From Flavobacteriales bacterium (lineage in GTDB: Bacteria; Bacteroidota; Bacteroidia; Flavobacteriales_F; PHOS-HE28), in NCBI GenBank assembly GCA_013360395.1, contig JABWBQ010000016.1:1-52332 (forward strand): a stretch of 52,332 nt of DNA, given 5' to 3'. Position numbers and translations under genes: made by a program. The notes under the pieces are model-generated. The model had not been told where the DNA came from, made no database searches, and saw nothing but the letters and a program-made list of their open reading frames with translations. Shown in pieces: positions 2,259 through 10,851 of this stretch (positions are counted from its first letter, which is position 1; every line of letters starts with the position of its first letter).

Positions 2259-2314
2259 GGGGCGGTGGCCCACCGCGGGGCGCTGGTGCCCCGGCGGTGC
2301 CTGGCCGTGGACGG

Positions 2315-2322
2315 CAAAGCTA
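2315..2322 (-). promoter_or_regulatory. Predicted -7 box (TAGCTTTG) for the FG-GAP gene
   Basis: Read on the minus strand this is TAGCTTTG, a full match to the Bacteroidota TAnnTTTG box, 56 bases upstream of the ATG at 2258. No clear -33 TTG is visible. The leader between contains a GC-rich palindrome near 2263-2280. Confidence 0.5.
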
Positions 2323-2360
2323 GGTGGTGCCCAAGGGGTTCCGCGCGTCAGGGGGCTTTC

Positions 2361-2368
2361 TATATTTG
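2361..2368 (+). promoter_or_regulatory. Predicted -7 box (TATATTTG) for secDF
   Basis: TATATTTG matches TAnnTTTG and lies 66 bases before the SecDF ATG. It faces away from the minus-strand box at 2315-2322, so 2259-2434 is a compact divergent promoter region. The -33 region is weak (GGGGTT near 2335-2340). Confidence 0.55.
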
Positions 2369-2434
2369 CCGCCCCATTGCAAGACCGTGCCCGTCGCGGG
2401 CCGGTCCCCATCCCCCCGAAACACCCCGTCGGAC

Positions 2435-5400
2435 ATGCAGAACAGAGGCGCGTTGTGGATCTTCACCATCCTGCTGGCGCTCGCTTGCCTGTGGCAGCTT
2501 TCCTTCTCCTTCTTCACCTCGGGCGTGGAGCGGGAGGCCCGTGCGCAGGCGGCGATCCTGGCCGATTCCGTCATGGCCGTGCCGGAGAACGCCTCCGCCG
2601 ACCGGGACTCGGTGCTCATCGTCATGGAGAACCGGGTGCTGCGCGACCGGGCCGAGGAGAAGATCTATCCCCTGCTGGGCTACAGCTACCGCGAGTGCAA
2701 GGAGAAGGAAATGAACCTGGGCCTCGACCTCAAGGGCGGCATGGCCGTCACCCTGGAGGTGAGCATCCCCGAGCTGGTGGATAACCTCAGCGAGAACAGC
2801 GGCGACCCCACCTTCCAGGCGGTGATGAACGCCGCCCGCGCCCGCCAGGTCAGCAGCACCGAGGATTTCATCACCCTGTTCGCCGACGAGTGGAACAAGC
2901 AGGCCCCCAACGCCAAGATGGCCGCCGTGTTCCACTCGGCCGACAAGAAGGACATGTTCCCGCGGGAGGCCACCAACGCCGAGATCGTGGAGGCCCTGCG
3001 CCGCGAGGCCCGCACGGCCATCAACAACACGGAGAACATCCTGCGCAACCGCATCGACAAATTCGGCGTGGCCCAGCCCGGCATCCAGAAACAGCAGTTC
3101 AGCGGCCGCATCCAGGTGGAACTGCCCGGGGTGAAGGACAAGGAGCGTGTGCGCAAGGTGCTCCAGAGCACGGCCAACCTCGAGTTCTGGGAGACCTATG
3201 ACAACACCGAGGTGTACCCCCTGCTGGAGGCGGCCAACAAGCGCCTTCGGGAGGCCAAGGGCGGGGTGACGGCCACCGAGGCCACGGACGGCGGGTACAA
3301 CAAGTCCCTGCCCACGGGCGTCACCATCGACGGCCTGGCCGGCGGTGTGGAAAGCGGTCTGCTCGGCTTCCTGGAGAGCGGCCGCGCGGCGGACAAGACC
3401 ACCTGGTTCAACTTCGACCGCGTGGTGTTCCGCAGCGGCAGCGCCGAGCTGGTGACCGACAGCAGCGAGGCCCAGCTGAAGAACCTGGCCGAGATCCTCA
3501 AGGCCTATCCCGACGTGCGCCTGAAGATCGGCGGCTACACCGACAGCACCGGCAACGCCGACGCCAACCTCAAGCTCAGCCAGCAACGCGCCGAGACCGT
3601 GGTGGCCGACCTGGAGCGCAAGGGTATCGCCAAGGGGCGCCTTGAAGCCGAGGGTTACGGTGCACAGCATCCCGTGGCCAGCAACGCCACCCCGGAAGGA
3701 CGTGCCAAGAACCGCCGCATGGCACTGCGGGTGCTGGAGACCGGTGCGGTGGCCACCACCACCGACAGCACCGCCACGGATACCACCGCCGGTGAGGACC
3801 TGCTCGAAGCCCTCCGTGCCGACAGCGACTCGGCCGCCACCGACACCGCCGGTGCCCGTGCGGACTTCCAGAAGGAGAACCCCCTCTTCGCCGTGCTGAC
3901 CCCCAGCGTGTTCGGCACCCAGGCCGGCGGTTACCAGCTGGCCAAGGGCGCCGCCGTGGGCAATGCCCGCACCCTGGACACCGCCGCGGTGAACGCCACC
4001 CTGCGCGGCACCACCCTTTCCGGCGTGTTCCCGGCCGACCTGCGCTTCGCCTGGGGGGCCAAGCCCATCGAGGGCACCGACGTGCTCACCCTTTACGCCC
4101 TGCGCGTGCCGCGCGGCGGCAAGCCCAAGCTGGACGGCTCCTCCATCGTGAACGCGGCCCAGGACTTCGACATGAAGGGCGACGTGGAGGTGGTGATGCA
4201 GATGGACGCCGAGGGTGCCCAGACCTGGAAGGTGATGACCGGCGACAACGTGGGCAAGGCCGTGGCCATCGTGCTGGACGACCTGGTGTACAGCGCCCCC
4301 ACCGTGATCAGCGAGATCTCCGGCGGCCGCAGCAGCATCACCCTCGGCTCGGGCGACCTCAACCGCCAGATCCAGGAGGCCGAGGACCTGGCCAACATCC
4401 TCAAGGCCGGCGCCCTGCCCGCCCCGGCACGCATCATCGACGAAACGGTGGTGGGCCCCTCGCTCGGCGAGGAGAACATCACCAGCGGCCTCATCTCCTT
4501 CGCCGTGGCCCTGGTGGGCGTGCTGCTGGTCATGGGCCTGTACTACGCCGGCGCCGGATGGATCGCCGACATCGCCCTGCTGGCCAACGTCTTCTTCCTG
4601 GTGGGCACCATGGCTTCCATGCAGGCCACCCTCACCCTGCCCGGCATCGCCGGTATCGTGCTCACCGTCGGTATGGCCGTGGACGCCAACGTGCTCATCA
4701 ACGAACGTGTGCGTGAGGAGCTCCGCGCCGGCCGCATGCTCAAGTCCGCCATCCAGACGGCCTTCAGCAACCAGGGCGCCCTCTCGGCCATCATCGACTC
4801 CAACGTCACCACCTTCGTCACGGCCGTCATCCTCTACATCTTCGGTTCGGGCCCCATCCGCGGTTTCGCCACCACCACCGGCCTGGGCATCCTCACCTCC
4901 ATGTTCACGGCCATCTTCATCAGCCGCCTGATCATGACGTGGCGGTTGGACAAGGGTAAGACCATCACCTTCTGGAGCAACTGGTCCAAGAACATCTTCG
5001 TGAACGCCAACTACGAGTGGATGGGCCGCCGCAAGGTGTTCTACGCCATCAGCCTGGTGCTCATCGGCATCGGCATCTTCAGCATGGTCACCCGCGGTTT
5101 CAACTGGGGCGTGGACTTCAGCGGTGGCCGCGCCTATGTGGTGAAGTTCCAGGACGAAGTGGATGCCGAGGAGGTGCGCGGCGTGTTGGAACCGCTCCTG
5201 GTCGGGGAAGGCGGACGGCAATACTCCATCGGCGTGAAGACCTATGGCGGCAGCCGGCAGCTGAAGATCACCACCAACTACCTGATCGACGACCTGAGCC
5301 AGGGCACCGACGCCCGCGTGGAGCAGCGCCTCGGCGAGGGCCTGGCCAAGGTGGGCGGCGGCTACGAAGTCGTCGAGGCCCGCAAGGTGGACGCCACCAT

Positions 5401-5953
5401 CAGCGACGACATCAAGACCAAGGCCATCACCTCGGTGCTCATCGCCCTGGTCTTCATGTTCATCTACATCGGTGTCCGGTTCAACAACTGGCAGTACGGC
5501 ATCGGCGCACTGCTCTCCTTGGTGCACGACACGCTGATCGTGCTGGGCCTCTACTCCCTGTTGTGGGGCGTGGTGGGCTTCTCCCTGGAGATCGACGAGG
5601 CCTTCATCGCCGTCATCCTCACCGTCATCGGGTACTCGATCAACGATACCGTGGTGGTGTTCGACCGCATCCGGGAGTACTTGCGTGAGCACAAGCGCGA
5701 GGACACCATGACCGTGTTCAACAAGGCCATCAACTCCACCCTGAGCCGTACGCTGAACACCGGTTTCAACACCATGCTGGTGCTGCTGATCATCTTCTTC
5801 TTCGGCGGGGTGAGCATCAAAGGCTTCGTGTTCGGCCTGTTCGTGGGCATCGTGGTGGGCACCTACAGCTCCATCTTCGTGGCCTCCGCCATTGCGGCGG
5901 ACCTGCTGAAGAACAAGGAGCGCAAAGCCGCTCCGGCCGGCGTCACCGCCTGA
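2435..5953 (+). CDS. secDF: SecDF fusion protein with an OmpA-type domain inserted in the SecD periplasmic head
   Basis: This is the accessory subunit of the Sec translocon (1172 aa), which uses the proton motive force to pull proteins out of the SecYEG channel. The start ATG 2435 gives MQNRGALWIF followed by the first membrane helix (about 8-27). The SecD signature LGLDLKGG is at 95-102. The SecD membrane block spans about 673-840 with VGMAVDANVLI. The SecF half starts near 858 and carries GVDFSGG and SINDTVVVFDRIRE. Between the first part of the P1 head (ends near 285) and the rest of P1 (from about 486, QKENPLF) lies an insertion. Residues 290-320 resemble the linker of DUF937-OmpA proteins, and 323-436 form a full OmpA C-terminal domain with GGYTDSTG and LSQQRA. 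A Thr/Ser/Asp/Ala-rich linker (437-485) follows. Fused SecDF is normal in Bacteroidota, usually near 1000 aa; the OmpA insert is not. Reading frame and codon use are uninterrupted. Confidence 0.97.
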   Translation: MQNRGALWIFTILLALACLWQLSFSFFTSGVEREARAQAAILADSVMAVPENASADRDSVLIVMENRVLRDRAEEKIYPLLGYSYRECKEKEMNLGLDLKGGMAVTLEVSIPELVDNLSENSGDPTFQAVMNAARARQVSSTEDFITLFADEWNKQAPNAKMAAVFHSADKKDMFPREATNAEIVEALRREARTAINNTENILRNRIDKFGVAQPGIQKQQFSGRIQVELPGVKDKERVRKVLQSTANLEFWETYDNTEVYPLLEAANKRLREAKGGVTATEATDGGYNKSLPTGVTIDGLAGGVESGLLGFLESGRAADKTTWFNFDRVVFRSGSAELVTDSSEAQLKNLAEILKAYPDVRLKIGGYTDSTGNADANLKLSQQRAETVVADLERKGIAKGRLEAEGYGAQHPVASNATPEGRAKNRRMALRVLETGAVATTTDSTATDTTAGEDLLEALRADSDSAATDTAGARADFQKENPLFAVLTPSVFGTQAGGYQLAKGAAVGNARTLDTAAVNATLRGTTLSGVFPADLRFAWGAKPIEGTDVLTLYALRVPRGGKPKLDGSSIVNAAQDFDMKGDVEVVMQMDAEGAQTWKVMTGDNVGKAVAIVLDDLVYSAPTVISEISGGRSSITLGSGDLNRQIQEAEDLANILKAGALPAPARIIDETVVGPSLGEENITSGLISFAVALVGVLLVMGLYYAGAGWIADIALLANVFFLVGTMASMQATLTLPGIAGIVLTVGMAVDANVLINERVREELRAGRMLKSAIQTAFSNQGALSAIIDSNVTTFVTAVILYIFGSGPIRGFATTTGLGILTSMFTAIFISRLIMTWRLDKGKTITFWSNWSKNIFVNANYEWMGRRKVFYAISLVLIGIGIFSMVTRGFNWGVDFSGGRAYVVKFQDEVDAEEVRGVLEPLLVGEGGRQYSIGVKTYGGSRQLKITTNYLIDDLSQGTDARVEQRLGEGLAKVGGGYEVVEARKVDATISDDIKTKAITSVLIALVFMFIYIGVRFNNWQYGIGALLSLVHDTLIVLGLYSLLWGVVGFSLEIDEAFIAVILTVIGYSINDTVVVFDRIREYLREHKREDTMTVFNKAINSTLSRTLNTGFNTMLVLLIIFFFGGVSIKGFVFGLFVGIVVGTYSSIFVASAIAADLLKNKERKAAPAGVTA

Positions 5954-5971
5954 TCGGACCCGTCGCATCCG

Positions 5972-6000
5972 AAGGTCCCGCAGCAGCCCTGCGGGACCTT
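5972..6000 (+). terminator. Intrinsic terminator-like hairpin after secDF
   Basis: A perfect 12-bp stem (AAGGTCCCGCAG / CTGCGGGACCTT, loop CAGCC) starts 19 bases after the SecDF stop and is followed by CCTACTTTT. It separates secDF from tatA, which has its own -7 box immediately downstream. Confidence 0.75.
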
Positions 6001-6018: not shown

Positions 6019-6327
6019 ATGGGCGTGTTCCTGCTCTTCGACATCAGCGGCGGCGAACTGATCGTCATCCTGCTCTTCGTGCTGCTGTTCTTCGGGGCCA
6101 AGGGCATTCCCGACATCGCCCGCACCGCCGGCCGGGCCATGCGCCAGTTGCGCGATGCCACCGACGATGTGCAGCGCGAGATCCGCAAGGGGGCCAGCGA
6201 GGTGCGCCGCGAGGTGGAGGCCCAGCAACGGGCCTTCGACGCCCGGCCTGTCGAAGGGAGCACGGCCCAGCGGCCCGAGCTCCCGACGCCACCCGCACCG
6301 CCGGCCGAACCGCCCGCGGGCACCTGA
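6019..6327 (+). CDS. tatA: TatA/TatB-family twin-arginine translocase subunit
   Basis: A 102-aa protein with the TatA/B/Hcf106 layout. A short periplasmic start is followed by one membrane helix (GGELIVILLFVLLFFGAKGIP, about 11-31), containing the conserved Phe-Gly hinge and the Pro of the 'FG-xKxIP' motif. An amphipathic helix follows (ARTAGRAMRQLRDATDD) and then a Pro/Ala-rich tail. The N-terminal MGVFLLFDISGGE is the form common in Bacteroidota, where one TatA-like protein often serves alongside TatC. It would form the pore for folded, cofactor-bearing proteins. No tatC is in the window. The acidic-to-basic pattern after the helix fits TatA better than TatB, but the two cannot be separated firmly here. 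Confidence 0.9.
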   Translation: MGVFLLFDISGGELIVILLFVLLFFGAKGIPDIARTAGRAMRQLRDATDDVQREIRKGASEVRREVEAQQRAFDARPVEGSTAQRPELPTPPAPPAEPPAGT

Positions 6328-8712: not shown

Positions 8713-8784
8713 ACCGCCGGGCCGGGCATGGTGGGCGGGAACACCGTCCACGCCATGGAACAGGCGCCGCTTTCAACATTTGCT

Positions 8785-8792
8785 TACTTTCG
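8785..8792 (+). promoter_or_regulatory. Possible -7 box variant (TACTTTCG) for the PorE-like gene
   Basis: TACTTTCG differs from TAnnTTTG at one base and lies 34 bases before the ATG at 8827. The same octamer occurs 28 bases before the NamZ gene (43954-43961), which supports it as a local variant. Confidence 0.35.
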
Positions 8793-8826
8793 CCCGGACC
8801 CAACCGGACTTATCCCGCACGACCCG

Positions 8827-10851
8827 ATGCGTACAAGCATGTTCCTGGCCTGCCTCGGCGCCGGCCTGTTGACCTCCACCGTGGCGATGGGCCAGACCAA
8901 GCTCGCCGAGGAAGCCGACGCGGCCTTCAGCAAGGGGTATTACTTCAACGCCATCGAGCTGTACAAGAAGGCCTATACCACCGAGAAGAAGGCCAGTGAA
9001 AAGGCCGGCCTCATCTTCAAGGTGGGCGAGTGCTACCGCGTGCTCGGCGATGCCCAGCAGGCCGCCGTGTGGTATGAGAAGGCCAACAAGGCCCAGTACA
9101 GCGATCCGATCACCTATTTCCACATCGGGGAGGCGCTCAAGGAGCAGGGCAAATACGCCGAGGCCATCGCCGCCTACAACAAGTACAAGGAGAAGAACCC
9201 CGGCGACATGCGCGCCGATGCCGGCATCAGCGCCTGCCAGGTGGCCCAGCAGTGGAAGGACAACCCCAGCCGCTACAGCGTGGACCCCGAGGTGCTGCTC
9301 AACTCCCAGCAGTACGACCTCACCCCGGCCTTCAGCGACAAGAAGAACGAGGACGTGGTGTTCACCAGCACCCGCGCGGCCAGCACCGGCACCAACACCG
9401 ATCAGATCATCGGCGAGGCCTTCAGCGACCTGTTCGCCAGCAGCCGCGACAAGCTGGGCAAATGGAGCGAGCCCGTGAAGCTGCCCCCCAGCATCAACAC
9501 CGAAGGCAACGAGGGGGCCCCCGTCTTCAATGCCAAGCGCTCCATCATGTACTTCACCCGCTGCGCCTACGAGAAGAACAAGGTGCATGGCTGCGAGATC
9601 TGGATCACCAAGAAGGTGGGCAGCAACTACAGCGAGCCCGAGCTCCTGGCCCTGCGCCCGGCCAACGCCGGCAAGGAGAACAAGCTGGACACCCCCGTGG
9701 TCACCATGGGCCACCCGGCCCTCAGCCCGGACGACAAGGTGCTCTTCTTCAGCAGCAACATGAAGGGCGGCCAGGGCGGCAAGGACATCTGGATGGTGAA
9801 CCTCGACAAGGACGGCAAGCCCGTGGGCGCCCCGACCAACCTGGGCGCTGAGATCAACACCAAGAAGGACGAGATGTTCCCCTTCAACCGGCACGACGGC
9901 AGCCTGTACTTCAGCAGCGACGGACACCCCGGCATGGGTGGCTTGGACATCTTCCGCGCGGAAAAGACCGGCGACAACAGCTGGGGCCAGGTGGAGAACG
10001 TCAAGTACCCCATCAACGGCCCGGCGGACGACTTCGGGATCATCTTCGACGGCGAGGAGGAGCGCGGCTACTTCACCAGCAACCGCCCGGGCGGCAAAGG
10101 CCAGGACGACATCTGGCGCTTCTACATGCCCGACCTGGTCTTCGCCCTGCAGGGCACCGTGTTCGACAAGGAGACCAGCACCCCGCTGCCCGGCGCCAAG
10201 ATCGAGGTGGTGGGCACCGACGGTACCAGCTACAACGCCCTGGCCGATGACAACGGCGGATTTTCCTTCGCCGAGAACGGTCGCGACCGCTTCATCAAGG
10301 AGAACACCACCTACACCATCCGCGTCAGCAAGGACGAGTACCTGGTGGTGAACGATCAGATCACCACCGTGGGGCTGGACGAGAGCACCACCTTCGTGAA
10401 GGAGTACTTCCTGCAACCGGCCCGCAAGGACGTGGTCATCAAGATGCCCGAGGTGCAGTACGAACTGGGCAGCTTCGCCCTCACCCAGGCCGGCAAGGAC
10501 TCGCTCGAGTTCCTGTACGCCACGCTGACGGAGAACCCCACCATCGTGATCGAACTCGCGGCCCACACCGACTCGCGCGACACCGACAAACGCAACCAGG
10601 TGCTCTCGGAGAACCGCGCCAAGAGCTGCGTGAACTACCTGGTGAGCAAAGGCATCGACCCGGCCCGCATGCAGGCCGCGGGCTATGGCGAGACCAGGCT
10701 CCGCATCAGCGATGCCGAGATCGCCAAGATGAAGACCAAGGAGGAGCAGGAGGCCGCCCACCAGATGAACCGCCGCACCGAGTTCCGCGTGCTGAGCTTC
10801 GACTACGTGCCCAAGGAGCAGGTGCCGCAGGCCCCGGCCCCCAACAATTAG
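8827..10851 (+). CDS. PorE-like protein: TPR, PD40 propeller, carboxypeptidase-regulatory and OmpA domains
   Basis: A 674-aa exported protein. The start at 8827 gives a signal peptide (MRTSMFLACL ... VAMGQ, likely cut before Gln). TPR repeats fill about 22-160 (KGYYFNAIELYKKA, KYAEAIAAYNKY). A PD40/WD40-like beta-propeller spans about 175-435, with FSSNMKGGQGGKDIW, YFSSDGHPGMGGLDI and YFTSNRPGGKGQDDIW. A carboxypeptidase-regulatory-like fold follows (about 438-520, LQGTVFDKETSTPLPGA). The C-terminal OmpA domain (about 540-665) has AAHTDSRDT and ENRAKSC, the Asp/Arg pair used to bind peptidoglycan. This domain order is that of PorE, which anchors the T9SS PorK/N ring to the cell wall. PorE is a lipoprotein, whereas here no good lipobox is seen, so this may be a paralogue rather than PorE itself. 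No other T9SS machinery genes are adjacent. Confidence 0.85.
   Translation: MRTSMFLACLGAGLLTSTVAMGQTKLAEEADAAFSKGYYFNAIELYKKAYTTEKKASEKAGLIFKVGECYRVLGDAQQAAVWYEKANKAQYSDPITYFHIGEALKEQGKYAEAIAAYNKYKEKNPGDMRADAGISACQVAQQWKDNPSRYSVDPEVLLNSQQYDLTPAFSDKKNEDVVFTSTRAASTGTNTDQIIGEAFSDLFASSRDKLGKWSEPVKLPPSINTEGNEGAPVFNAKRSIMYFTRCAYEKNKVHGCEIWITKKVGSNYSEPELLALRPANAGKENKLDTPVVTMGHPALSPDDKVLFFSSNMKGGQGGKDIWMVNLDKDGKPVGAPTNLGAEINTKKDEMFPFNRHDGSLYFSSDGHPGMGGLDIFRAEKTGDNSWGQVENVKYPINGPADDFGIIFDGEEERGYFTSNRPGGKGQDDIWRFYMPDLVFALQGTVFDKETSTPLPGAKIEVVGTDGTSYNALADDNGGFSFAENGRDRFIKENTTYTIRVSKDEYLVVNDQITTVGLDESTTFVKEYFLQPARKDVVIKMPEVQYELGSFALTQAGKDSLEFLYATLTENPTIVIELAAHTDSRDTDKRNQVLSENRAKSCVNYLVSKGIDPARMQAAGYGETRLRISDAEIAKMKTKEEQEAAHQMNRRTEFRVLSFDYVPKEQVPQAPAPNN

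Follow-up and report, generated by a model that had tools for sequence, protein, structure and literature searches.

The window analysed here, the whole stretch of 52,332 nucleotides of Flavobacteriales DNA, carries a SecDF gene (fused SecD-SecF) whose frame runs unbroken from the ATG at 2435 to a stop at 5953 and encodes 1172 aa. The original prediction had described this single uninterrupted frame and placed an OmpA insert at 3302–3745, which corresponds to residues 290–437. The protein scores 1174.5 bits against NCBIfam SecDF NF009585 (cut-off 1037), and the best stretch of that match begins at aa 435, directly past the OmpA insert. One chain holds SecD_1st, the P1 head, the GG motif (Pfam Sec_GG, aa 882–908) and two SecD_SecF_C stretches, the makeup of the SecDF family. 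The features are as follows.

2435..5953, + strand: SecDF (fused SecD-SecF), 1172 aa plus stop (reading frame, Pfam, NCBIfam NF009585)
3023..3193, + strand: N-terminal (base) part of P1, SecD_1st (Pfam, aa 197-253)
3290..3415, + strand: pre-domain segment (aa 286-327) of the module, in which a beta-hairpin and a helix are predicted (alignment, model)
3428..3715, + strand: OmpA C-terminal domain of the peptidoglycan-binding family (Pfam, aa 332-427)
3542..3589, + strand: predicted diaminopimelate-gripping residues Asp370, Asn378 and Arg385 (alignments; correspondence to PorE from excerpts of PMC7192894)
3746..3874, + strand: Ala/Thr/Asp/Ser-rich linker after the OmpA domain (aa 438-480)
4121..4423, + strand: P1 head, SecDF_P1_head (Pfam, aa 563-663)

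The OmpA domain is complete, as had been claimed (PF00691, E 1.6e-20, 73.7 bits against a cut-off of 27.2), and the motifs quoted for it (GGYTDSTG, LSQQRA and KNRRMAL) are present in the translation. Because of the Pfam domain order we place the insert between the N-terminal part of P1 and the P1 head, and therefore on the predicted periplasmic side. A position between P1 parts was foreseen correctly, but not one between two halves of the head: judged by Pfam, the insert occupies the variable linker from P1 base to P1 head and lies outside the head itself. The Thr/Ser/Asp/Ala linker expected after the domain is there, with 71% A/D/S/T across aa 437–478. Most of aa 439–504 has a pLDDT below 50 in a full-length model that is itself poor (mean pLDDT 60), and the linker is taken as flexible.

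No tandem repeats were found within 2300–6000 of the window, and a SecD_SecF_C profile search found no second SecDF in the source genome (99.85% complete). Three further SecD_SecF_C matches in the genome, all above the Pfam cut-off (E 5.6e-7 to 3.5e-4), were rejected as a second SecDF in favour of two AcrB-type transporter frames of 1063 and 1086 aa. Directly downstream of SecDF, at 6019–6324, lies a TatA/B-type protein (Pfam TatA_B_E). A 707-aa protein at 8728–10851 ends in a C-terminal OmpA domain and by eye has TPR and PD40-like repeats, a layout that we take to be PorE-like.

Fold of the module and predicted peptidoglycan grip

The insert is a module of about 150 aa. Structure modelling, which had been proposed as a check, gave a good model of the module (155 aa, 54 sequences, pLDDT 93.3, pTM 0.89) but not of full-length SecDF. 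The pre-domain segment is modelled as a beta-hairpin and helix, with a pLDDT of 84 over the first ten residues and 93–97 over the next thirty, and is conserved with DUF937-OmpA and HppA-OmpA proteins. Foldseek searches of the PDB with the module model returned OmpA_C-type domains as best matches, including 5wtp, the peptide-bound 3td5 and PorE 6top. Superposition on Capnocytophaga OmpA gives an rmsd of 1.1–1.3 Å over 104–106 columns; the best-fitting structures align over roughly 105 of the 155 columns, and others extend over 130–138 columns at an rmsd of 4–5 Å. On the modelled structure, the SecDF insert has the OmpA_C fold.

In PorE, according to excerpts of PMC7192894, the side chains of Asp576, Asn584 and Arg591 hold the stem peptide, and Asp370, Asn378 and Arg385 of SecDF show the identical +8/+15 spacing. 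The original prediction named a diaminopimelate-binding Asp and Arg; both are present, together with the Asn, and the triad is kept in all 15 whole SecDF inserts. In the alignments it is invariant (14/14 SecDF, 54/54 modules), where the Asp conservation of loci found by pattern search is partly built in, because one of the two search patterns includes the Asp. The 15 inserts came from genus genomes and not from the pattern search, and carry no such bias. Asp370, Asn378 and Arg385 are thus a predicted peptidoglycan-binding grip.

Distribution and history of the insert

The family and order samples are the same 45 genomes, all of one genus, from which SecDF was extracted and 42 pieces over 600 aa were aligned. 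Of the 43 assessable genomes, 16 have the OmpA insert in frame and at the same place: 15 contain all of it (in one of them, G029, the contig ends further on in the gene), and the sixteenth, G004, is a fragment. It is absent in the other 27, 26 by alignment and G001 from match rows; G026 and G036 were left out of the count, as their SecDF pieces miss the insertion place. The 26 aligned non-carriers have 54–77 aa of linker at that place (median 58.5% A/D/S/T); the 27 non-carriers show a short Ala/Asp/Ser/Thr-rich linker or no space for an insert.

These counts bear on the reading that a frameshift, chimera or assembly artefact joined SecDF to an OmpA gene. All named carriers are metagenome-assembled genomes (MAGs) by title (14/14 SecDF loci) and some SecDF genes are mosaic, as an artefact would allow. 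Yet the same in-frame insert recurs in 16 genomes from records of different projects by title, in G040 it lies on a 207-kb contig, and the modules form one clade. Many separate assemblies thus rule out an artefact in practice, and we consider it exceedingly improbable.

In ten pairs (NG86, with dS saturated in three), dN/dS of the OmpA part is 0.05–0.26 compared with 0.08–0.20 for SecD residues 1–270, and it is higher in the pre-domain segment (0.12–0.38 in the nine pairs giving values). Judged by these ratios, the OmpA part is under purifying selection. GC3 is 0.89 in the insert and 0.95 in the flanks, and the base composition is not strongly foreign. Presence of the insert shows no association with a C-terminal OmpA module (tail) on the H+-pyrophosphatase HppA (Fisher p 0.49; 38 of 45 genomes: 3 with both, 11 SecDF only, 8 HppA only and 16 neither), with states read by hand and seven genomes left out as undetermined.

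The class sample comprised 395 genomes from 196 genera, including 16 genomes of the same genus. Among the matches listed, no alignment outside that genus showed an OmpA domain inserted into P1 of SecDF, and the listed SecDF frames outside it reach at most 1087 aa. A general Bacteroidota trait, raised as something that would undercut the original prediction, is thereby rejected as far as searched: among the matches listed, only the own genus carries the domain, and by sequence SecDF-OmpA appears confined to it in the samples searched.

We also used two peptide patterns of the module to scan 84,980 species, one genome per species, which gave 374 relatives, of which the best 80 were analysed. Blastp matches to a few references let us assign the host frames by hand to SecDF (14), HppA (29), DUF937-like proteins (26; matched to a single reference at E 1e-4, with L085 confirmed by Pfam) and others (11). 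The 14 SecDF loci are all MAGs titled Flavobacteriales or Bacteroidetes. H+-pyrophosphatases with the C-terminal module (L056-L062, L086, L094, L105 and others) occur in Spirosoma, Fibrella, Larkinella, Dyadobacter, Arcicella, a Flavobacterium and others, as well as in the own genus. Pfam, run on four of the 11 other hosts, gave COX2 (L112), COX4_pro (L117), cytochrome c (L111) and OmpA alone (L145). In L112 (2915-4450), cytochrome c oxidase subunit II bears the module at its C terminus and adjoins COX1; in L117 (3503-4441), the module is on cytochrome oxidase subunit IV, with COX3 and a UbiA prenyltransferase encoded in the same stretch. The cytochrome c of L111 (module frame ending at 4450-4453), in a stretch with an NrfD protein and COX2, is presumably ActE, and its cluster presumably alternative complex III. 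Among the matches listed for the 395 genomes, the COX2-module protein aligned over its full length (40–43% identical) in G182, G240, G354 and G374, four of five genomes sampled from a single family (f63); in the fifth, G392, COX2 has a frame of 509 aa with the tail unaligned and may also carry the module.

Four HppA tails of the same genus (L065, L066, L193 and L197) depart from the common pattern, with the triad missing in G001 and G002 and degenerate by eye in G012 and G021. The module can therefore persist elsewhere without its triad.

In a tree of 79 module rows the SecDF rows need two changes, and three degenerate HppA tails sit on a long branch among them. With these three and 23 rows of other hosts dropped, the 15 SecDF modules form one side of a branch in the resulting 53-row tree (support 100/98), so that a single origin of the SecDF inserts is likely. 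The segment ahead of the domain had been likened to DUF937-OmpA proteins as a possible donor. Such relatives exist, but the nearest tree neighbours are, with weak support, the HppA tails of the same genus (69–77% bootstrap), and DUF937 proteins are no more than a candidate donor. One clade for the HppA tails of the own genus and of other families is itself rejected (AU p 0.012, 16 thinned HppA rows, in a test devised with the first tree already known and to be read with caution), and at least two separate HppA-OmpA fusions therefore probably took place.

On SecDF trees built without the insert, presence changes seven times for the whole core (seven forced by starred branches), six times for P1 (three forced) and seven times for the TM half (six forced). 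In several species the P1 half groups with other neighbours than the TM half does. The SecDF of G041, insert excluded, is 92–99% identical to G008/G028 in bins up to residue 660 and 58–80% identical beyond. Mosaic genes with a break near residue 660 were observed in G041, G029, G044 and G013; some of this mosaicism could stem from chimeric MAG contigs. The clearest loss is that of G038 (listed with 9% contamination), which the P1 tree places inside a group with G013, G021 and G029. We think that one gain was probably followed by losses and by exchange of P1 between species through recombination; a less favoured alternative is that recombination alone produced several gains. Since the insert is absent in 27 of 43 assessable genomes and was lost at least once within a nested group, it is, by this distribution, dispensable.

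Such a pattern could also be that of a near-neutral passenger, a folded, soluble domain that does little and is tolerated by a disordered linker. Patchy presence, at least one nested loss and an insertion point in a variable A/D/S/T-rich linker would all suit a passenger, but the low dN/dS of the OmpA part and the triad kept in 15 of 15 inserts speak against it, as do the related modules that recur on ion-motive proteins unrelated to one another, and we regard it as quite improbable.

Proposed role and comparison with known systems

Our preferred reading, at a probability of roughly two in three, is that this SecDF carries a mobile OmpA module by which it is tethered flexibly and non-covalently to peptidoglycan. 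Spliced into the disordered stretch that links the P1 base to the head, the module would bind the diaminopimelate stem peptide non-covalently, and flexible leashes would hold SecDF to the wall with P1 still free to cycle. The export site would then be kept near, or immobile against, peptidoglycan. It has been proposed that P1 binds the emerging chain and moves with proton flow (excerpts of PMC6028853), and two machines are described as held to peptidoglycan by anchors of OmpA_C fold, the MotB motor (excerpts of PMC3080404) and PorE of the T9SS (excerpts of PMC7192894). Binding to peptidoglycan in the cell and a restraint on SecDF are predictions that we consider most likely, and positioning is a likelier benefit than extra pulling force.

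The main rival is a recruitment handle that brings SecDF to where new wall is being made, or to gaps in the peptidoglycan at which the translocon contacts BAM/SurA on its periplasmic side. Published modelling puts SurA at the P1 head, and contact between SecDF and BAM has been proposed (excerpts of PMC9987972); the module adjoins that head, but no finding here distinguishes a handle from a simple tether. Related modules also occur on H+-pyrophosphatase, COX2, COX4 and cytochrome c, which fits a general-purpose anchor. We know of no link to BAM for the modules on HppA and oxidase parts, which counts against a handle, and we judge recruitment unlikely.

If the module binds as predicted, a Sec export motor would be held to the cell wall, and both the need of SecDF for a fixed point as against freedom to move and the placement of export sites relative to peptidoglycan would become testable, with close relatives that have and lack the module (for example G029 and G038 in the P1 tree) as natural controls. 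The more surprising part is perhaps the related modules across ion-motive machines, as those on pyrophosphatases and oxidase parts point to a broader anchoring of bioenergetic complexes. A peptidoglycan-anchor module may have been added repeatedly to such machines (SecDF, H+-pyrophosphatase probably twice, COX2, COX4 and cytochrome c), fixing energy and export machinery to the wall as a general ordering of the envelope; we offer this tentatively, with the odds somewhat against it.

No description of a SecDF with an OmpA or other peptidoglycan-binding domain was found among the papers listed from the open-licence literature, in line with the novelty originally claimed, though one may exist elsewhere, and we file this protein as a new SecDF variant. 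Papers listed from the same literature yielded no OmpA module on pyrophosphatase, alternative complex III or cytochrome c oxidase, and among 60 of 77 matched sequences listed from the PDB no entry covers both SecDF and OmpA parts. Bacteroidota-type SecDF (NF009585) and Thermus SecDF (3aqp) share with the present protein the P1 parts, the GG motif and two SecD_SecF_C stretches, from which it differs by the module of about 150 aa, of a peptidoglycan-binding family, in its P1 linker. DUF937-OmpA and HppA(H+-PPase)-OmpA proteins carry homologous modules, pre-domain segment included, that are 54–64% identical to the SecDF module, but there the module is a C-terminal tail and in SecDF an internal insert. 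The OmpA_C domains of MotB/PomB, TssL/TagL, Pal and PorE, which anchor envelope machines to peptidoglycan, have the same fold by model comparison and sequence, and that of PorE has the same triad (excerpts of PMC7192894); the domain described here, which follows a conserved hairpin-helix, differs in lying inside the Sec motor, on its periplasmic side.
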